NCBI RefSeq assembly: GCF_014596745.1
Contig: NZ_JABTCF010000002.1
Span: 310,001 to 374,000 of the forward strand
Direction: 5' to 3'
Length of the DNA stretch: 64,000 nt
Origin: Maribacter aquimaris
GTDB lineage: Bacteria; Bacteroidota; Bacteroidia; Flavobacteriales; Flavobacteriaceae
The position numbers and the translations under genes are program-made. The notes below the pieces were generated by a model. The model was not told where the DNA came from and did no database searches. It saw nothing but the letters and a program-made list of their open reading frames with translations. How positions within the stretch are numbered: the stretch's first letter is position 1; each line of letters begins with the position of its first letter. Positions 29,413 through 59,398 of the stretch are shown here, piece by piece.

Positions 29413-29736
29413 TCGTTCCGGTTTTTAGGTTGTTCTTTATTTATGCAATCGGAAATACAAACTGGGTATATTTTTTAAGGATTACCTACCTAAAAGTATG
29501 ACTTCATATTTCCCTTTGAGCTCCTAAATCTTCAAAGTTCCTTTTTACCAACCTATAATCGATAATGGATAAAACAGGTGGCAATGAAGGATGTTTCTAA
29601 AGTTTCTTTTTGCCGTTTACCCATTAAGTAGCTTATAGGATTATCAGTTTAGGAATTTAATGTTAAAAATTTGTTAGCTCCACAAATATACATATATTTG
29701 GTAAACCAAATTGGTAAACCAATTTAATCTATCGCA
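29413..29736. promoter_or_regulatory. Divergent promoter region of the PL6 lyase, with two tandem GntR operators
   Basis: TTTG (29670-29673) is followed after 19 bases by TATATTTG (29693-29700), a good match to the Bacteroidota TTTG/TANNTTTG promoter. Two copies of the palindrome TTGGTAAACCAA (29698-29709 and 29711-29722) overlap the -7 box and continue towards the ATG at 29737. The same kind of palindrome occurs before both susC genes and before the GntR gene. The remainder of this 324-base gap, towards the TIM-barrel gene, shows nothing clear. Confidence 0.7.
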
Positions 29737-34908: not shown

Positions 34909-34962
34909 AAAATCCAAAACAAATTAAATTTTAACATTTAATTCTGTTTTGGATTTTTTTTT
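34909..34962 (+). terminator. Rho-independent terminator after kdgF
   Basis: A 13-bp stem (AAAATCCAAAACA, 34909-34921; TGTTTTGGATTTT, 34945-34957), extended by an inner AATTAAA/TTTAATT pairing, ends in a run of T. It separates the lyase operon from the susC promoter, which begins only ~16 bases later. Confidence 0.85.
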
Positions 34963-34977
34963 AACACATATATAACA

Positions 34978-35020
34978 TATATTTGGTTATCCAAACTGGT
35001 TTACCAGTTTGGATAACCAG
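34978..35020 (+). promoter_or_regulatory. Promoter -7 box and GntR operators of the first susCD operon
   Basis: TATATTTG (34978-34985) is a perfect TANNTTTG box. It overlaps TTGGTTATCCAA (34983-34994), followed by CTGGTTTACCAG (34996-35007) and TTGGATAACCAG (35009-35020). Together 34984-35019 form one 36-base near-perfect palindrome. The first 20 bases (from ACATATATTTGG onwards) are the same as before the second susC gene. Confidence 0.7.
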
Positions 35021-35331
35021 AAAAAACTAGATAAACGAATACTAACTCTGACAAAATCAACATTCAATGAAACTAGATGGATAGTACAAAAAAAAGGATA
35101 GGTGCCAGCCTATCCCTTTCAAAATGATCACTTCTTTTGGAAAGAAGTAAACTCTAAAACACATAATGCTTTACAAAAACATGCTTTCTGCAAAAATAGC
35201 AAAATATTAATTGACTTCTTCAGAAAGATCGTGCTTAGGTAAGGCAAGGGAATTGAGATTGTTATATCTCATTTATCAATACTTCTCAATGGTATTGAAT
35301 TGTAAAAAGTATAAACATAATAAGATCACAA
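35021..35331 (+). ncRNA. Conserved 5' leader of susC, copy 1 (candidate cis-regulatory RNA)
   Basis: The ~310-base stretch between the operators and the susC ATG has no gene of its own but shares blocks and spacing with the leader before the second susC (55876-56185). Shared parts are GCCAGCCTATCC (35104-35115), a hairpin ACTTCTTT-TGG-AAAGAAGT (35130-35148), and a hairpin ATCAATAC / GTATTGA (35275-35298) just before the start region ATAATAAGATCACAAATG. The last 121 bases align with copy 2 without gaps. It may fold to control translation or readthrough; function is inferred. Confidence 0.5.
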
Positions 35332-38300
35332 ATGAATTTAAAATCGAGATTAATCTTAATGGTGGTATTGCTATTCAATGCTACATTATTTGCGCAGGAT
35401 AGCTATCAGCTATCAGGTACGGTAACAGATGAGGCGAATGTTCCCATTCCAGGGGTGAATGTTGTTATATTAAATACAACTAGGGGAACGGCGACCGATT
35501 TTGATGGGTTGTATCAAATAGAGGTTTCAAATGGCGAAACGCTACAATTTTCGTATTTGGGTTATGTTACCCAAACGATCGATGTTTCTGGTCAGAAACA
35601 AATTAATGTTGCTTTGAAAGAAGATGCGGCACAACTTGAAGAAGTTGTGGTGGTAGGGTATGGTGCTCGTAGAAAAAGTGATGTAACGGGTTCTGTATCT
35701 TCAGTTAAATCTGATGAATTGACGGCTTTTCCAGTATTGGAGGCCGAGCAGGCACTTCAAGGTCGTGCTGCCGGTGTTGTTGTCCAATCCAATAATGGAG
35801 GTGAGCCAGGGGCTCCTATTAGTATTAGTGTTAGGGGTAATACTTCTATAAATGCAAATAGCGATCCGCTAATTGTTGTAGATGGTTTTATCGGGGCTAA
35901 TATGCCTCAAGCTGGTGATATTGCATCTTTACAGGTTTTGAAGGATGCTTCTGCAACTGCAATTTATGGTTCCAGAGGTTCTAATGGTGTTATTATGGTT
36001 ACAACCAAGAAAGGTAAAAGTGGTAAATTAAATATTGAATTAAATACGACTTATTCCATTCAAAGTACTTCAAATAAATTGGATTTGTTGAATGCTAGTG
36101 ATTTCGCAAATTATCAAAATCAAATAAGGGCTAATCAGGGGAATACTAATACTTATACTCAAGGAGCGTATGATACGGATTGGCAAGATTTGATTTATAG
36201 AACCGGTAGCACCCAAAACCATCAAGTTTCTTTTTCAGGTGGATCGGAAAAAATCAATGTTTATGCCTCGGGTACGTATTTTAATCAAGATGGTGTTTTG
36301 ATAAATTCAGGTTACGAGAGGTTATCATTTTTGTCAAATATTGATGCCCAAATATCGGATAAATTAAAATTAGGACTTAATTTAACTGGTAGTACTAGTA
36401 AAAAGAATGGTGTTGCTACCCAATCGGACGGTTCTGCTTCCGTAGGGGGTGATGATGTGGTTTCTTTGGCTATGCGGTTTGCTCCTGATAAGGGTATTTA
36501 TAACGAGGATGGCACGTTTGCGACAAATGATCAAATAGGGGATCAGGTGGATAATCCATGGGCTGTGGCCACGCAAAAAGACGATGATACTACAATAGAC
36601 CTTTTTAGGGCAAATGTCTATGCGGACTATGAGATTATCGAAGGTTTGACTTTTAAGACAACTTTTGGTTTAAGTACCAAAAATGAATTTAGAGGAACTT
36701 ATACGCCCAGAACATTAACATTGACTTCAGGAGGTGTTGATGGCAGGGCAATAATGTCAGAAGATAAATCCAAGTCGGTATTGAGTGAAAATTATTTAAC
36801 CTACAATAAAGAGTTGGGAAAAGGTAATTTAACATTATTGGCTGGTTATTCGTATCAAAAAACCACTAATGAAGGGTTTTATAGTGAGGGTACAGGAACT
36901 ATCGATGATTCGTTTTCCTATTATGGTTTATACACCGCCACAAGTTTAATCAATGGTTCTTCAGGTGATGTGTATTTCAATGAAACAGAAATTCAATCCC
37001 AATTTGGAAGGGCGAACTTTGATTACGATGATAGATTTTTGTTGACAGCTACGGTAAGAAGGGATGGAGCCTCGAATTTTGCTAAAAATGAAAAATATGC
37101 TATTTTTCCTTCAGGGGCTTTAGGTTGGAAAGTGTCCAATGAAAACTTTTTGAAAGACAGTAAATCCATTTCAAACTTGAAATTAAGGGCAAGTTATGGT
37201 GTTACGGGTAACCCGTCAATTGGTGCTTACGAATCGTTAGCGGTTTTGAGAAGTTTATATGCTTCAAGTAATGGTGAAACTGTTACGGCTGTTACTCCAT
37301 ATCAAAATGCTAACCCGGATTTAAAATGGGAGTCTTCCTATCAAACAAACTTTGGTTTGGATTTAGGTCTGTTCAATAGTGCAGTTTCACTTTCTTTGGA
37401 TTATTATGATATCGACACCAAAGATGTTCTTATGTTCGATAATAGTATCCCATGGTCTTTTGGTCTTCTTAATGATGAAATAATCACGAATGTTGGTGAG
37501 ATTAACAATAAAGGATTTGAAATTTCATTAAATACCAGAAATATATCCAATGAAAGTTTTAGTTGGACTACGGATGTTGTCTTCTCCAGAAACAAAAATA
37601 CGGTTGAAACCTTAATTAACGGTGCGGATTTCTTTGGTAGTGGTGCGCCAAGTTATTTTAGTGTGGATAATAACTACATCCTAAGGGAAGGTGAAGAAGT
37701 TGGTCTATTTTATGGCTTGGATTATGCAGGTGTATATCAAGGAGGTGCTGTACCAGCGGGGACAGCAGCTCTTACAGGGGCTGTAGCTGGTGACCCATTG
37801 TTTGCAGATTTAGATGATAGTGGAGATATTACTACTGCAGATAGGGAAATTATTGGTAACCCTAACCCTGATTTCACTTGGGGTATTACAAATACCTTCA
37901 GATATAAAGACCTTGATTTAAATATCTTTTTCCAAGGTTCTCAAGGTGGGGATATTTTTAATATGACCAATGTTCAATTGTACAATGGTGATGCCAATAC
38001 AACGTATGAGAATTACAATAATGCTTGGACGTCTACCAATACCGATACAAACGTTCCTCGTGTAGGAAATAATAGTAACAGGGAAATTTCTTCCCGTTTT
38101 GTTGAAGATGGAAGTTACATTAGATTAAAGAACATAGCCATAGGTTATAATTTACCTTCAGATGTTCTCGAACCTATAGGTATATCTAAAATGAGATTAT
38201 CAGTTAGTGCACAGAATCTATTGACTATTACAAATTACTCTGGTCTGGATCCTGAGGTAAATTACTATGGTGCTTCTGGCAATAATAATACTTCGAGCAA

Positions 38301-38376
38301 TACTGTTAGGGGTTTTGATTTTGGAAATTATCCAACGGTAAAATCGGTTAGTTTTAGCCTTAATGTAACATTTTAA
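35332..38376 (+). CDS. SusC/RagA-type TonB-dependent transporter (alginate locus)
   Basis: A 1014-residue outer-membrane importer for oligosaccharides, working with the SusD lipoprotein that follows. It has a signal peptide ending LFAQ, a carboxypeptidase-like regulatory domain (~25-100: LSGTVTDEANVPIPGVNVVI), a TonB-box-like LEEVVVVGYG (~103), a plug domain (~115-225: VVDGFIGANMPQAGDIASLQ, ATAIYGSRGSNGVIMVTTKK) and a 22-strand barrel to the C-terminus. The start is fixed by the signal peptide and by the matching position in the second susC. Location next to PL6/PL17 suggests alginate oligomers as cargo. Confidence 0.95.
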   Translation: MNLKSRLILMVVLLFNATLFAQDSYQLSGTVTDEANVPIPGVNVVILNTTRGTATDFDGLYQIEVSNGETLQFSYLGYVTQTIDVSGQKQINVALKEDAAQLEEVVVVGYGARRKSDVTGSVSSVKSDELTAFPVLEAEQALQGRAAGVVVQSNNGGEPGAPISISVRGNTSINANSDPLIVVDGFIGANMPQAGDIASLQVLKDASATAIYGSRGSNGVIMVTTKKGKSGKLNIELNTTYSIQSTSNKLDLLNASDFANYQNQIRANQGNTNTYTQGAYDTDWQDLIYRTGSTQNHQVSFSGGSEKINVYASGTYFNQDGVLINSGYERLSFLSNIDAQISDKLKLGLNLTGSTSKKNGVATQSDGSASVGGDDVVSLAMRFAPDKGIYNEDGTFATNDQIGDQVDNPWAVATQKDDDTTIDLFRANVYADYEIIEGLTFKTTFGLSTKNEFRGTYTPRTLTLTSGGVDGRAIMSEDKSKSVLSENYLTYNKELGKGNLTLLAGYSYQKTTNEGFYSEGTGTIDDSFSYYGLYTATSLINGSSGDVYFNETEIQSQFGRANFDYDDRFLLTATVRRDGASNFAKNEKYAIFPSGALGWKVSNENFLKDSKSISNLKLRASYGVTGNPSIGAYESLAVLRSLYASSNGETVTAVTPYQNANPDLKWESSYQTNFGLDLGLFNSAVSLSLDYYDIDTKDVLMFDNSIPWSFGLLNDEIITNVGEINNKGFEISLNTRNISNESFSWTTDVVFSRNKNTVETLINGADFFGSGAPSYFSVDNNYILREGEEVGLFYGLDYAGVYQGGAVPAGTAALTGAVAGDPLFADLDDSGDITTADREIIGNPNPDFTWGITNTFRYKDLDLNIFFQGSQGGDIFNMTNVQLYNGDANTTYENYNNAWTSTNTDTNVPRVGNNSNREISSRFVEDGSYIRLKNIAIGYNLPSDVLEPIGISKMRLSVSAQNLLTITNYSGLDPEVNYYGASGNNNTSSNTVRGFDFGNYPTVKSVSFSLNVTF

Positions 38377-40169: not shown

Positions 40170-40181
40170 CTGGTTAACCAA
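40170..40181. promoter_or_regulatory. GntR operator in front of its own gene
   Basis: CTGGTTAACCAA contains the perfect palindrome TGGTTAACCA (40171-40180), 20 bases before the gntR ATG, preceded by a half-site AAACCAAAC. It is of the same type as the palindromes before PL6 and both susC genes, suggesting autoregulation. Confidence 0.6.
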
Positions 40182-40199: not shown

Positions 40200-40904
40200 A
40201 TGAAATTAGAAGTCCTTACAAAATCAGAGAATAAAGAAGTTCAAAAAGAAATTATTTCAAAAATCCGAGACCTAATCGATTTTAAAAATTTAGAACCAGG
40301 GGATAAACTGCCTTCAGAGCGTATGTTGTCAGAAAAGTTTGGGGTAAGTAGAAGCAACCTAAGGGAAGCCATCCAAAGATTGGAGTTCTATGGTTTGTTG
40401 AAATCCAGGCCACAGAGCGGTACATTTATTGCCGATATAGGGCCTATTGCCATGAAGGGAATGCTAAAGGATATACTTGAATTGGAAACTCCGGATTTTA
40501 AATCTCTCGTTGAGACACGGATTTTATTAGAGTTGAAAACTTGTAGATTGGCAGCTTTGCGACGAACCGAAGAGGATTTGGAACATATGAAAAAGGCCTT
40601 GGATGCTTTTAGTGCTAAGGTGAATAACGGGGAAGATGCCGTTCAGGAAGATTTGTTGTTTCATTTGTCCATCGCTAAAGCCAGTGGCAATAGTAGTATG
40701 AATACATTCATGTTGATCATTACCCCTGAGATCATTACCAACTTCGAAAAGTATCATGTATGTGATGTCAATAGAGCGGCCTTAGGGATACAAGAACATA
40801 ATGATATCTTCGAAGCGATAAAAAAACAAGACCCAAAATTGGCCAAAGAAAAAATGAAAGTACACTTCAAAATGTTGTACCAGTATTGTTATAATATTGA
40901 ATGA
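40200..40904 (+). CDS. GntR-family (FadR subfamily) transcriptional regulator
   Basis: The 234-residue regulator has a winged helix-turn-helix (~12-80: LEPGDKLPSERMLSEKFGVS, RSNLREAIQRLEFYGLL) and a C-terminal FCD effector domain (~100-225) with the metal-binding residues expected in that fold (LLFHLSIAKASGN, EHNDIFEAI, MKVHFKML). FadR-type regulators with FCD domains commonly respond to sugar acids, so an alginate-derived acid such as DEH or KDG is the likely ligand. A palindrome precedes its own gene and four regions of the window carry the same type of site, so it is the probable local controller. Confidence 0.92.
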   Translation: MKLEVLTKSENKEVQKEIISKIRDLIDFKNLEPGDKLPSERMLSEKFGVSRSNLREAIQRLEFYGLLKSRPQSGTFIADIGPIAMKGMLKDILELETPDFKSLVETRILLELKTCRLAALRRTEEDLEHMKKALDAFSAKVNNGEDAVQEDLLFHLSIAKASGNSSMNTFMLIITPEIITNFEKYHVCDVNRAALGIQEHNDIFEAIKKQDPKLAKEKMKVHFKMLYQYCYNIE

Positions 40905-54701: not shown

Positions 54702-55832
54702 AACAAATGGCTGTGAAAAGAAATCCCCTTCCACCTTGTTCTACATCAATTCTATTTTTGGGGGAAGAAACATGATCGAATACTAGGATTATAGTCAAGA
54801 TTAGCAGATTCTTCAAGACTGGGAATTGAACACCGGAATCGCGGTGCCCGAGGTTCCAATGGCAGGCTGTGGGGACCATTAAACCGAAAAAAAGGATGAG
54901 GGTAATCTCTTTTTCCTATTGAAACCAAAACCGATAAAGTGTTTTGTCATACAGGTTTTCGTTGGAAAAAAAGGGACAGTTTAATATCATGGAAGAATGC
55001 AATGCTTGTTTAAAGCGATTTGCAGGGATTGAAGCATCCTTTGCAAATTAGGGTTGAGTAAACAGAAAAGTTTAAAGGGCTAATATACTCGTTACCTGTG
55101 GGTTGTAGGCCTTTTCTATATTCATTTGTGTAGGCTGAAGGGTTGAATATTATTAACCCTTACCGTTGCAAATAAATAATCATGGGTTAATATAGATTCC
55201 TTTTTTTTCTTCAAAAATTCAAATTTTGTTTGACATTTTCGAAAGACAAAAATCCATAGTCATTTGAGCGTGGTTTTTCTAGTGTATCGATCGAGGTAGG
55301 ATCCGAACCTTCTAGCGTCTGCGGGGAAGATGCTACAATTTTATTTTTAATGTATTTTAGGTTGCTGATTATCATTCCTTTATAAAATATTATAGGGAAA
55401 ATAATAATAAAGAAATAGCTGTACGCCAATGTGATTTCTACAGTTCATGTATCTTCAATGGAACATAGCTTCACTAAAAACTGATTAATAAACATTTTGA
55501 ACCTAACAATCTGTTATATATCAGATTGTGGAAGTGAAACGCAGATTACACTGCAATGTGCGTTTTTGTATAAATATCAATAAGGTTGTATATCGTGAAC
55601 CTTAATACTAAATGCATCTGCTAGGTAGCCTTTACCATTATTAGTTTAGAATTTTCCAATGGGCTTTTTTAAATTCATTTTTACTTCAATATAATAATCT
55701 TCTTTCTTTAATAGTTTCCCAATTTTATAAAACAAAGGTCTTTTAAATGATATATTCTTCGCTAATTGGACAAAGAATATAGTCAAAAATGTTAAAATCG
55801 TAAAAACTATTTATTTAACAATAAAATAACAT
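54702..55832. other. Long non-coding region between kduD and the second susC promoter
   Basis: About 1.1 kb without a convincing gene. A piece ending near 54880 reads as a C-terminal tail (QILQDWELNTGIAVPEVP, then AGCGDH and a stop), possibly a gene remnant. On the minus strand a 72-codon frame (55211-55429) begins with a hydrophobic stretch and ends DYGFLSFENVKQNLNF; it could be a remnant too, but no family was recognised. From ~55500 the sequence is AT-rich promoter-like DNA. Confidence 0.35.
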
Positions 55833-55875
55833 ATATTTGGTTATCCAAATTGGTCGACCAATGTGGGTAACCAAA
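55833..55875 (+). promoter_or_regulatory. Promoter -7 box and GntR operators of the second susCD operon
   Basis: TATATTTG (55833-55840) overlaps TTGGTTATCCAA (55838-55849), followed by the perfect palindrome TTGGTCGACCAA (55851-55862) and a degenerate GTGGGTAACCAA (55864-55875). Order and spacing mirror the three sites before the first susC gene (34983-35020), so both operons are probably controlled by the GntR regulator at 40200. Confidence 0.7.
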
Positions 55876-56185
55876 GGAAGAATAAAACGATAACTAACTA
55901 AAACCAACAATGTACATTCAATGAAACTTTACGGGTAAATCAAAAAAAGGGTAAGAGCCAGCCTATCCAAATCGCGATGTTCACTTCTTTTCAAACAGAA
56001 GTAATTCGTTAAAACATGTACTACTTTTCAAAAGCATGCTTTTATAGAACTAGGTGAAAATCCATTGGATTCTTCAAAAATGTGTTTTTTGAAAGGAGTA
56101 GGGATGTTGACATTCTTATATCCTATTCATCAATACTTCTTAACGGTATTGATCGGTAAAAATTATGAACATAATAAGATTACAA
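55876..56185 (+). ncRNA. Conserved 5' leader of susC, copy 2 (candidate cis-regulatory RNA)
   Basis: The counterpart of 35021-35331. Shared blocks are ACATTCAATGAAACT, GCCAGCCTATCC (55957-55968), a hairpin ACTTCT / AGAAGT (55983-56002), AAGCATGCTTT (here inside a perfect palindrome at 56030-56043), and a hairpin ATCAATAC / GTATTGAT (56129-56153) before ATAATAAGATTACAAATG. From operator to ATG it differs from copy 1 by a single base in length. Loop bases vary while stems hold, which points to RNA structure. Confidence 0.5.
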
Positions 56186-59100
56186 ATGAATTTAAAAACC
56201 AAATTAACTTTAGTTGCGGTAATGTTGTTCAATATATCATTATTTGCACAAGACGGATATGTGCTCTCGGGTACGGTAACCGATTCGGACAATATTCCAA
56301 TCCCTGCTGCCAATGTTGTTATTTTAGGTACAACATCAGGTACGGCAACGGATTTTGATGGTAATTATTCTATTAAGGTGTCAAATGGGGATGTTTTACA
56401 ATTCTCTTATTTAGGATTTGTAACACAAACAGTAACTGTAAGTGGTCAACAAAAATTGAACATTACATTTGTTACTGATGCGGCCCAATTGGATGAAGTG
56501 GTTGTAATTGGATACGGTAATCAATTAAAGACCAGTGTAACAAGTGCCTTAACTGAAGTTTCAGGCGAAGATATAGAGAATGTTTCCGTATCCCGTGTTG
56601 AAGATGCACTTAAGGGTCGGGTGGCCGGTTTAAGAATCCAGACAGTTGCATCAGAAGCAGGAGGTGACCCTAAGATTACTTTGAGGGGGCCTGGGTCTAT
56701 AACAGGTTCTTCATCGCCACTAATCGTGGTTGATGGGGTCGTGTTAGGGACCGATGCGGACATATTGGGTTCTATTGATAATAATAACATTGAGTCGATC
56801 AGTGTTTTGAAAGATGCGTCATCCGTGGCGATATATGGTTCCCGAGGTGCCAATGGGGTGATTTTGATTACACTGAAAAAAGGGGTTACCGGTAAAACTA
56901 AATTCTATTACAACACATTTACCGGATATAAATATGCGACGAAAAATGATAACTTCAATACGACGATAGCTGACGAAAGGGCTAGGTTGAATGGACTTCA
57001 AGGTGTAGTTGACGGAATATCGCCAGATAGTGAGAATTACGACAGAATCATTGGGGACTACAATTCGGCGTATGCAGAACTTGAGGCTATGGATTTTATA
57101 GCTTCCTTAGGGGGTGGCGAATCCAACTGGCAGGATGAAATTTTCAACGGGGGCATCATTACGAGTCATTCATTGGCGGTAAGAGGGGGTTCTGAATTAA
57201 CAAACTATTCAGCTTCTTTTGGATATCTAGACGATGAAGGTATTGTGTTGACCGATAATTTCGAGAAATATAATGCGAGGATAAAAGTTGACAGTAAATC
57301 TAAAAACGAGAAAATTAAATTTGGGGCGAATTTGCGTGCCAATTATAACAATCAAGTTAAGGTACCGACAAGATTTACGGATCCTTTAAGGCAATATGGG
57401 TATTTGCCCCTTTATTTAAATGAAGAACATTTAAAGTACATCACCCAATCGGATCCTGGTGATGCTGGCGCCCAATTTGAAAATATTGGGGTTGGCAGTT
57501 ATGGTTTTTCCAGGGCTTTTGACCATGTGTTCACCGTTGATCCCAATAACCCAAGGGCAATAGCCAGAGATCCGAATACAGGTCTTCCATTGGTGAGTGA
57601 TTTAACTTCCGGTGGATTGACATTGTCAACTACTAAAAACGTACATCCTTTAGTGCATTATCTAGAAAGGTCTAGATTAAAGAAAAAGTTAAGTTTAAAT
57701 GCATCTTCCTATATTGATTTTGAATTGGCAGAAGGACTTAATTTTAAACAGACCATATCCGGTGTTTTTAGACATAGTAAGACCAATGATGCGGATTATC
57801 TATATGGTCAGGAAAATAGGGAACAAGAGTCTTACCGATTGGAAAGAAGGGAAGAATTGAACCAATATGCATTCGAGTCCCTGCTTAGGTATACCAAAAG
57901 CTTTGGAAAACATAGTATAAACTCAATACTTGGATTTGAGTATACCCACCGGGATTTTTATATACAAGAGTCGGAGGCCGTAGGTTATACCGATGATTTC
58001 AACAATAATATTGCGCTTGCGGATGGAGGGACCACTTATACCGATAATGGAACCGATAAACTGGTTTCATATTTTGGAAGGTTGGATTATGATTATGACC
58101 AAAAATACCTTTTACAAGTTTCTGCCCGTACCGATGGTAGTACCAGATTTGGATCCAATACAAGGTTTGGTTTCTTTCCTGCAGCTTCTGTAGGTTGGGT
58201 AATGTCAAATGAAGATTTCTTGTCCCAAAGCGATTTTGTTACATTTTTGAAATTAAGGGCTAGTTATGGTATTTCGGGTTCCAATGAAATATCCAGCGAC
58301 ATATTTGAATCGCTTTACAGGTTTGATGAGACATTCAGCACTATCGGTTACAATGGAACTACCGGCGTTAAGGCGGTAACCCTTGCCAATGCGGATTTAG
58401 GATGGGAGAAATTAATAGAATTCAACCCAGGTATCGACGTTACCTTTGGGAGAGGGCTTTTGACACTTTCTGCGGATTATTATACAAGAACAAGTGAAGA
58501 CTTGATTCTTTTTGCTCCAGTAGCTGCCACTTACGGTACGGACAATTGGTTGCAGAATATAGGGGAGGTTAAAAATGAAGGTGTTGAATTGGAATTGAAT
58601 TCCAGGATTTTAACCAATGAAAACTTTAGTTGGTTGGCGTCAGGTCAGTTTTCTTTGAATAGGAATACGGTTCAGAGTTTAGGTAATAATGAACAGATCA
58701 TTTCCAGGATCGATCAGGATACCAGACCTACGGAATTTATAGCTAAAGTAGGTCAACCGATAACCTCTTTTTACGGATGGGTTTATGATAAGGAAATTCC
58801 ATTGGAGTGGGTAGACAATCCTTTTAATAGATTTAATAACGATTATGCCGATGTTTATGTAAAGGATTTGAATAATGATGGAATCATCGATGATGAGGAT
58901 AGAACCGAATTAGGTAGTCCTTATCCGGATTTTACTTGGGGGTTTAATTCTGATTTTAAACTTCACGATTTTGATTTTTCATTTCAATGGCAAGGATCTC
59001 ACGGTGCCGAAGTAAGGGTGGCCGATTTGGATCAGCTGTATTATGCCAGTGAATCAGCCGTAAACGAAGTTGCTAGTTTCCCTGATGCCGATTTAACGGT

Positions 59101-59398
59101 CCATAGAAGATATACAGATGACCATATTCAAGATGCATCCTTTGTAGCGCTAAGAAATATTACGCTAGGTTTTTCATTCCCGGAAAAATTTACTTCCAAA
59201 TATAATATAGACAGACTTAGATTGTATGTAACGGGTGAGAATTTACTTTTCTTCACAGCAGCAGGTTATGAAGGGTTTAATCCTGAAGCGGCCGGTCAAA
59301 CATCCGATAACGCTAATACGCCGTTAACAGCTGGATATCAAAGAGGAGATGGTCCCGTGGTTAGAACAATTTCAGTAGGAATGAACTTTCAATTTTAA
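56186..59398 (+). CDS. SusC/RagA-type TonB-dependent transporter (second operon)
   Basis: An outer-membrane oligosaccharide importer of ~1070 residues. The frame is open from an ATG at 56165, but alignment with the first susC and the signal peptide (MNLKTKLTLVAVMLFNISLF) place the start at 56186. It has the carboxypeptidase-like domain (VLSGTVTDSDNIPIPAANVV, ~23-42), TonB-box-like LDEVVVIGYG (~105), plug domain (VVDGVVLGTDADILGSIDNN, SVAIYGSRGANGVILITLKK) and barrel. The first ~110 residues are much closer to the first SusC than the rest, so the substrate probably differs. SusD follows after six bases. Confidence 0.94.
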   Translation: MNLKTKLTLVAVMLFNISLFAQDGYVLSGTVTDSDNIPIPAANVVILGTTSGTATDFDGNYSIKVSNGDVLQFSYLGFVTQTVTVSGQQKLNITFVTDAAQLDEVVVIGYGNQLKTSVTSALTEVSGEDIENVSVSRVEDALKGRVAGLRIQTVASEAGGDPKITLRGPGSITGSSSPLIVVDGVVLGTDADILGSIDNNNIESISVLKDASSVAIYGSRGANGVILITLKKGVTGKTKFYYNTFTGYKYATKNDNFNTTIADERARLNGLQGVVDGISPDSENYDRIIGDYNSAYAELEAMDFIASLGGGESNWQDEIFNGGIITSHSLAVRGGSELTNYSASFGYLDDEGIVLTDNFEKYNARIKVDSKSKNEKIKFGANLRANYNNQVKVPTRFTDPLRQYGYLPLYLNEEHLKYITQSDPGDAGAQFENIGVGSYGFSRAFDHVFTVDPNNPRAIARDPNTGLPLVSDLTSGGLTLSTTKNVHPLVHYLERSRLKKKLSLNASSYIDFELAEGLNFKQTISGVFRHSKTNDADYLYGQENREQESYRLERREELNQYAFESLLRYTKSFGKHSINSILGFEYTHRDFYIQESEAVGYTDDFNNNIALADGGTTYTDNGTDKLVSYFGRLDYDYDQKYLLQVSARTDGSTRFGSNTRFGFFPAASVGWVMSNEDFLSQSDFVTFLKLRASYGISGSNEISSDIFESLYRFDETFSTIGYNGTTGVKAVTLANADLGWEKLIEFNPGIDVTFGRGLLTLSADYYTRTSEDLILFAPVAATYGTDNWLQNIGEVKNEGVELELNSRILTNENFSWLASGQFSLNRNTVQSLGNNEQIISRIDQDTRPTEFIAKVGQPITSFYGWVYDKEIPLEWVDNPFNRFNNDYADVYVKDLNNDGIIDDEDRTELGSPYPDFTWGFNSDFKLHDFDFSFQWQGSHGAEVRVADLDQLYYASESAVNEVASFPDADLTVHRRYTDDHIQDASFVALRNITLGFSFPEKFTSKYNIDRLRLYVTGENLLFFTAAGYEGFNPEAAGQTSDNANTPLTAGYQRGDGPVVRTISVGMNFQF

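Follow-up and report, generated by a model that had tools for sequence, protein, structure and literature searches.

A conserved element in the leaders of alginate susC genes of Flavobacteriaceae most likely includes a DonS-like antisense sRNA gene

Introduction

For marine Flavobacteriaceae, alginate from brown algae is an important food source. In the parts of the published reports drawn on here, its regulation is described at the level of AusR, a GntR repressor of the alginate genes of Zobellia galactanivorans (PMC8286568, PMC8073546). The closest known system to the element reported here is that of DonS. DonS and the DonS-like RNAs, from PULs of Bacteroides fragilis and B. thetaiotaomicron, are 78–128 nt long and divergent to susC homologues, and DonS lowers PUL expression (PMC7366714, PMC11697453). 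Also in B. thetaiotaomicron, SusC-type transporters are regulated post-transcriptionally by the sRNAs FopS and GibS, with RbpB; the FopS family has 14 members, which target susC-type mRNAs close to their start codon (PMC11697453). For Flavobacterium psychrophilum, structured 5′ regions including Flavo-1 and leader-peptide attenuation have been reported, and the sigma-A -7 consensus was given as TAnnTTTG at positions -12 to -5 (PMC9723704).

Here we analysed the leaders of two susC genes in a 64,000 nt stretch of the Maribacter aquimaris genome (contig NZ_JABTCF010000002.1). This whole stretch is referred to as the window.

Results

The two susC leaders of the window

The gene context in the window is that of alginate use, with chondroitinase-B/PL6-type, alginate lyase/heparinase, cupin, SusC, SusD, GntR-FCD, MFS, SDR and PfkB kinase genes. 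Domain and SusC comparison identified susC copy 1 (SusC/RagA family; 35332..38376, plus strand). The product of susC copy 2 (56186..59398, plus strand) falls by SusC comparison into the main cluster of leader-linked SusC proteins, where it is one of 66 members and no singleton. The start codons lie at 35332 and 56186, and we refer to the two leaders as C1 and C2.

A first-pass annotation of the window had pointed out that the leaders are nearly equal in length from operator to ATG, and re-measuring returned its values of 349 nt for C1 and 348 nt for C2. Shared blocks and hairpins occur at matching places in both leaders, as it had claimed, and in a MAFFT alignment of C1 and C2 the gap-free stretch before the ATG is longer than the 121 nt reported there. 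The ATCAATAC/GTATTGA stem, said to be kept, has 100% of its cells paired across six leaders of the genus, the seventh (L018) being omitted. The divergence of the two SusC proteins past residue ~110 was likewise borne out: identity is 68% over residues 1–110, then 43% over a 138-residue stretch and 30% over the 601 residues of the rest.

BLASTN of C1 against its own genome recovered C2 (E 2e-57; 74% identity over 381 nt); a third full-length leader copy was not found at E up to 1. A match on contig C22 was set aside, being A-rich and in a different context. In two different SusC families, the leader is accompanied by the signal peptide and the N-terminal ~110 residues (MNLKTKLTL...LFAQ; 35332-35661 and 56186-56515). 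This combination appears to be a module swap that joined the regulatory 5′ part to different barrels.

Distribution of the element

Within the genus, the leader is present in 5 of 12 genomes, as seven copies. The element is absent from the other seven genomes. A BLASTN search of the leader against 299 genomes of the family found no full-length relative outside the genus and only fragments, mostly at the susC start. Homologues outside the genus came from the upstream regions of SusC orthologues and from a covariance model. Among 25 SusC orthologues checked by eye (L041-L065), three (L047, L048 and L053) have a clear leader homologue upstream.

The covariance-model search proposed in the first-pass annotation brought up homologues in many genera, mostly before susC and with covariation. 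Built from nine copies, the model (R1) matched 73 of 397 Flavobacteriaceae genomes, well beyond that of the window, and 57 of 237 genera (77 matches), with nine candidates scored per genome and strict filters, so that second copies may be missed. The stems do covary, in the subgroup and minus-strand alignments described below. Outside the genus there are 74 matches; we inspected the surroundings of each and found that 71 shortly precede a susC open frame. Together with the seven copies of the genus, these 74 form the set of 81 elements used throughout. Promoter and core are 37 to 128 nt apart in the 80 elements measured, and these distances fall into two classes; the near-constant leader length seen in the window thus holds within the genus and not across the family.

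Scanning one genome per species with a DNA pattern (hairpin P1 plus the start of P2, both described below) gave at least 116 matching stretches, some of them from the same genomes as the covariance-model set. Those listed come from Zobellia, Maribacter, Arenibacter, Aquimarina, Algibacter, Kordia, Polaribacter, Cellulophaga and others, genera that we take to be Flavobacteriaceae, as well as from one Cytophaga sp. Among the 116 matches listed, 108 show a downstream open frame (107 SusC-like and one GntR), and promoter and operator are both present in 110 of the 112 whose flank is long enough. A further genome (WNKP01000001.1) holds two matches to the pattern, on adjacent stretches (L285 and L293).

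Firm matches were confined to Flavobacteriaceae both in an order-wide sample of 196 genomes (R1) and in a phylum-wide sample of 375 genomes searched with a second model (R2). An order-level match in G455 (E 0.086) and five matches outside the family in the phylum search (E 0.03–0.08) were treated as chance. Rfam gave no match at gathering score in the window, and at E up to 5 five loci yielded only matches of E 1.3–3.2, far below the gathering scores. Among the titles and abstract openings listed by the literature searches, none describes the element; the literature covered includes few subscription journals, so this is weak evidence of novelty. The element is real and widespread and, as far as searched, uncatalogued, and it is not a local duplication.

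Sense promoter, operators and regulator

The predicted sense promoter of susC copy 1 has the -7 box TATATTTG (34978..34985, plus strand) and a predicted start at ~34990; the corresponding box of copy 2 lies at 55832..55839 (plus strand). An operator scan identified a GntR/AusR-type palindrome (TGGTNNACCA core; 34984..35019) that overlaps the predicted sense start, and further operators before PL6 (29681-29725), susC copy 2 (55838-55875) and the GntR gene (40171). The arrangement of a TAnnTTTG promoter followed by a TGG[TA]NN[AT]CCA operator is conserved in 80 of the 81 elements. The window's own genome holds three close promoter-operator sites, all in the window, and one match with two mismatches elsewhere; only the two sites before susC come with the element. 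The AusR-like regulator, with GntR and FCD domains (40200..40904, plus strand), presumably binds the predicted operators.

At 40171, the operator core immediately precedes the start of the GntR gene and is not accompanied by a TATATTTG box; autoregulation of this gene is possible. Profiling of 80 elements also revealed a TTAAC-like block conserved between the -33 and -7 regions of the sense promoter (34960-34985). One element (L130, 2982-3089) precedes a susC gene right behind a GntR gene and shows no recognised operator or promoter.

The conserved core read on the minus strand

The first-pass annotation had regarded the region as a leader-type element of alginate transporters. That it is a conserved element of RNA type stood up to the analysis, but a sense leader by itself does not describe its core best. 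The core is probably an antisense sRNA gene of ~99 nt, with a promoter mid-leader that opposes susC, and it would give alginate uptake a two-layer control. The predicted sRNA, delimited by conservation, folding and covariation, starts at 35186 and ends with a U-tail at 35088 (35088..35186, minus strand; 99 nt). Over the 81 elements its predicted length is 77–103 nt, with one at 77, the start being set by offset where the promoter box is not exact. Information content is 0.16–0.33 bit per column upstream of the A-run that encodes the U-tail, 1.56 in the A-run and 1.34 in P1; further on it is 0.44–0.48 in stem-loop 1, 1.39 in the box, 0.59 in the next ten columns and 0.18–0.23 beyond.

P1 (35088..35120, minus strand), a hairpin followed by U8, is the predicted intrinsic terminator. 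A G+C-rich hairpin with a U-run was recognised on the minus strand by pattern scan (35120-35091), and its stem covaries. An A-run of at least six before P1 on the plus strand, and therefore a U-run after the hairpin on the minus strand, occurs in 75 of the 81 elements and in 108 of the 116 pattern matches listed. Following P1 on the plus strand, a T-run of six or more was found in 1 of 79 elements and one of 4–5 in 52 of 79. What is a C-A mismatch in a P1 pair on the plus strand is a G-U wobble on the minus strand in 41 of 78 sequences. Without the loop-closing pair, P1 has 51 G-U cells on the minus strand only and 4 on the plus strand only; the loop-closing pair points the opposite way, being U-G on the plus strand only in 58 cells and on the minus strand only in 2. 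We first considered P1 as a sense terminator and set this aside on the U-tail and the wobble asymmetry.

By folding energy, P1 is more stable on the minus strand in 48 elements and on the plus strand in 28. Stem-loop 1, the 5′ end of the predicted sRNA (35150..35186, minus strand), folds better on the minus strand in 76 of the 81 elements and on the plus strand in one. The whole sRNA span is more stable on the minus strand in 68 of 81, with a mean z of -4.76 (plus strand, -3.70). In the minus-strand alignment A6 (77 of the 81 elements, four poorly aligned or degenerate ones omitted), 96.6% of cells are paired and two-sided changes occur in 10 of 19 pairs, compared with 2.7 in shuffled alignments and with none of 500 shuffles reaching this number; structures were predicted on the favoured strand (minus for A6; plus for A3, A4 and A5 below), so that pair counts lean that way. 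Within P1, 7 of 11 pairs show two-sided changes in the minus-strand alignment. The terminator, much of the folding and the P1 wobble asymmetry thus argue for a minus-strand gene that encodes an antisense sRNA.

The candidate antisense -7 box, TATTTTTG (CAAAAATA on the plus strand; 35191..35198, minus strand), is conserved and matches CAAAnnTA, the reverse complement of TAnnTTTG. This motif is present in 62 of the 81 elements, 59 times at the same offset (mononucleotide shuffles: mean 4.3, maximum 11), and 19 elements lack an exact box. Among the pattern matches listed, the box occurs in 98 of the 112 readable loci, and among the first 80 listed it occurs in 39 of the 46 loci that are absent from the 74. 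Its second “n” is mostly fixed (A in 71 of 81), so the box is not a pure TAnnTTTG pattern. A -33 TTG upstream of the candidate box shows no excess (9 of 61 vs. 8.6 in shuffles; at the sense promoter, as control, 42 of 80 vs. 28), and thus the candidate antisense promoter may be weak or wrong. We infer from the arrangement that an antisense RNA is made, and that it would pair in vivo and repress susC.

Structures of the sense leader

The foremost alternative takes P1–P3 as a sense cis-regulatory leader of susC, acting as an attenuator or by binding a ligand or protein; P1 would then end transcription early. It fits the position of the element, nearly always before susC and behind the sense promoter and with a micro-ORF just upstream of P1, and the T-runs of 4–5 that follow P1 in most elements. 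P1 and P2 also covary when read on the plus strand: in alignment A3 (78 of the 81 elements; E up to 0.01), 91.2% of their cells are paired and 6 of 16 pairs changed on both sides. P2 itself (stem-loop 2, ACTTC/GAAGT; 35129..35149) covaries and is ambiguous in strand. Its energy is better on the plus strand in 73 of 81 elements and on the minus strand in 8, and its three inner pairs are U-G on the plus strand only in 121 cells and on the minus strand only in one, whereas the z-score favours the minus strand. In 65 of the 81 elements, though not in the window copies, P2 could also adopt a different inner stem, pairing CTTC with GGAG/GAAG-type partners.

P3, a long hairpin of the sense mRNA leader (35167..35246, plus strand), overlaps the predicted sRNA with its 5′ arm. 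In alignment A4, a subgroup of 18 sequences, 12 of its 25 pairs changed on both sides (5.5 when shuffled; none of 500 shuffles reached 12), and its wobbles number 50 on the plus strand and 12 on the minus strand. P3 therefore belongs to the sense strand, and the sense leader is probably also a functional RNA under selection. Default RNAalifold did not recover P3 in a mixed alignment of 41 sequences and did so in subgroup alignments. Two further hairpins were examined within the genus: P4 (35254..35271, plus strand), with 88.9% of cells paired and no two-sided change, and P5 (35275..35298, plus strand), the ATCAATAC/GTATTGA stem, with one two-sided pair. By these signals P3, and within the genus P4 and P5, are assigned to the sense leader. 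Whole-structure covariation within the genus alone is weak (three two-sided pairs, a number reached in 43 of 500 shuffles). RNAalifold of alignment A5 (six-sequence subgroup) also predicted long-range pairing of the P2 flank with the susC start; we dropped this helix, as by inspection it is apparently not kept in C2, and no helix that would sequester the susC start was established on the sense strand.

A sense leader is hard to reconcile with three features of the core, namely the U-tail on the minus strand, the P1 mismatches that become G-U pairs on that strand, and stem-loop 1, which is a hairpin on the minus strand only. We therefore consider it unlikely that sense cis-regulation is the whole function of P1–P3, and retain the antisense sRNA gene as the preferred reading of the core, beside a sense leader with P3.

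A micro-ORF upstream of the core

Just upstream of the core, C1 carries a micro-ORF of codons ATG AAA CTA GAT GGA TAG (MKLDG*; 35067..35084, plus strand), and C2 carries one encoding MKLYG* (55921..55938, plus strand). An ATG with an in-frame stop giving 2–15 codons is found just before the core in 61 of 66 long leaders, compared with 19.7 ± 3.3 (maximum 29) in 300 shuffles. Of 59 nearest ATGs, 50 are followed by a stop in their own frame, compared with 19 and 13 for the other two frames (Fisher p 2e-13, kinship ignored). The second codon is AAA in 29 of 59.

These counts favour an explanation in which a ribosome at the micro-ORF sets folding, sRNA pairing or mRNA stability, with the core as its partner. 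None of the 14 short leaders carries a micro-ORF, which indicates that it is not essential, and no conserved amino acid points to a sensed signal. As the main function of the region, control by the micro-ORF is thus quite improbable.

In a subgroup (L134, L136, L144, L146, L138 and L151), an 11-codon ORF with an MYN or MSN start overlaps a second micro-ORF at ATGA, an arrangement as for translational coupling.

Two-copy genomes and elements without an attached susC

Five genomes hold two elements, and in none of them are both antisense boxes intact. Exactly one box is intact in four (in the window that of C1, not C2), and neither in the fifth (G003). From the 58 of 71 single copies with an intact box, the chance of finding no genome of five with both intact is ~0.004, kinship ignored, and we count this for the antisense sRNA reading. 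A Fisher test of copy rank against box is partly circular, as the ranking model includes the box. The second sRNA copy of the window (55942..56040, minus strand) is degenerate, with a broken box (56045-56052) and a partly broken terminator stem, and is still complementary to the copy-1 sRNA. For the C1 sRNA with the C2 leader, a duplex of -94.8 kcal/mol is predicted (mean of shuffles, -29.2), with a similar result for each of the three further pairs tested. Pairing of the C1 sRNA with the C2 leader makes action in trans possible.

Three of the 74 elements (in G112, G163 and G246) sit 368–433 nt before a GntR gene with no susC between. They score 91, 73 and 57 bits, the last with altered P1 and P2 and thus degenerate. 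These elements (L159, 3317-3429; L171, 3204-3315; L121, 4398-4515, minus strand) lie between Nramp or cupin genes and GntR, and they retain the sense promoter and operator. Copies kept apart from susC speak for the antisense sRNA reading, while the sense promoter and operator that they retain, and the degenerate state of one of them, speak against it. At E 1e-180, no main-type susC was found in G112 or G163.

Such copies, and the single intact box in four of five two-copy genomes, are what would be expected of a trans-acting sRNA whose main targets lie elsewhere and whose position in susC leaders is incidental. We consider this very improbable, since susC follows in 71 of the 74 matches and in 107 of the 108 readable loci among the pattern matches listed, and since G163 does hold C1-type susC genes, one of them ~3.5 kb away. 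Shared ancestry of duplicated promoter regions without RNA function, which the 74% identity of C1 and C2 and their common N-terminal module might suggest, can be dismissed almost entirely given a core conserved in 57 genera, its covariation and its strand asymmetry, and is contradicted by the covariation of P3 and A6.

Discussion

Most likely, a DonS-like antisense sRNA gene is nested in the alginate susC leader, and the sense leader around it is itself structured and bears a micro-ORF. In the mechanism that we propose, AusR (GntR) would close the sense promoter without alginate, and the mid-leader antisense promoter would fire against susC to give a ~99-nt RNA with three stem-loops. This RNA would stop at the intrinsic terminator ~70 bp downstream of the susC operator, and the terminator would keep the antisense polymerase off the sense promoter. 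The predicted sRNA would match positions from about +99 to +197 in the susC mRNA leader with full complementarity, and the second susC leader with lower complementarity. Once AusR is bound or alginate is exhausted, base pairing with the leader could damp any susC mRNA that is residual or arises from leaky transcription, through RNase III-type cleavage or lost translation. Strong sense transcription across the antisense promoter may then turn the sRNA down again, and the micro-ORF could gate pairing or decay.

More tentatively, and with somewhat more doubt than confidence, the element may be a family-wide alginate switch. An AusR-guarded sense promoter would be combined with a single intact sRNA gene that silences its own and paralogous leaders in trans, gated by the micro-ORF, and copies without an attached susC would belong to this regulon as stand-alone sRNA genes.

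A conserved RNA element before alginate susC genes in many genera offers a directly testable second layer beyond AusR, and it could be a second switch on the consumption of brown algae by these bacteria. If the antisense reading is true, antisense control of PULs reaches from gut Bacteroides to marine Flavobacteriaceae. The locus also illustrates that reading a region as a sense leader can mask a gene on the other strand.

Among described systems, that of AusR concerns the same pathway, and GntR-type operators are present here too; in the parts of the reports cited above, AusR represents a protein/DNA layer only. The median 5′ UTR of F. psychrophilum is 24 bp in the portion of the data drawn on here (PMC9723704), vs. 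a predicted 342 nt for the leaders of this study. With respect to structured 5′ regions such as Flavo-1, presumably an Rfam family, no Rfam family matches the window element at gathering score. FopS is a multicopy family, whereas the element occurs mostly as one copy per genome (77 matches in 73 genomes) and would be antisense to the middle of the leader.

The likeness is greatest to DonS, which is likewise opposite to the susC 5′ region; here the placement rests on sequence prediction, with susC downstream in 71 of 74 cases. The predicted lengths of 77–103 nt correspond to the range of DonS-like RNAs. The two are likened by description, and DonS belongs to loci for mucosa-derived glycans, whereas the loci reported here are GntR (AusR)-type alginate loci. 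In contrast to DonS, the element is one family spread over 57 of the 237 sampled Flavobacteriaceae genera, and it comes with a micro-ORF, the sense hairpin P3 and copies without an attached susC.
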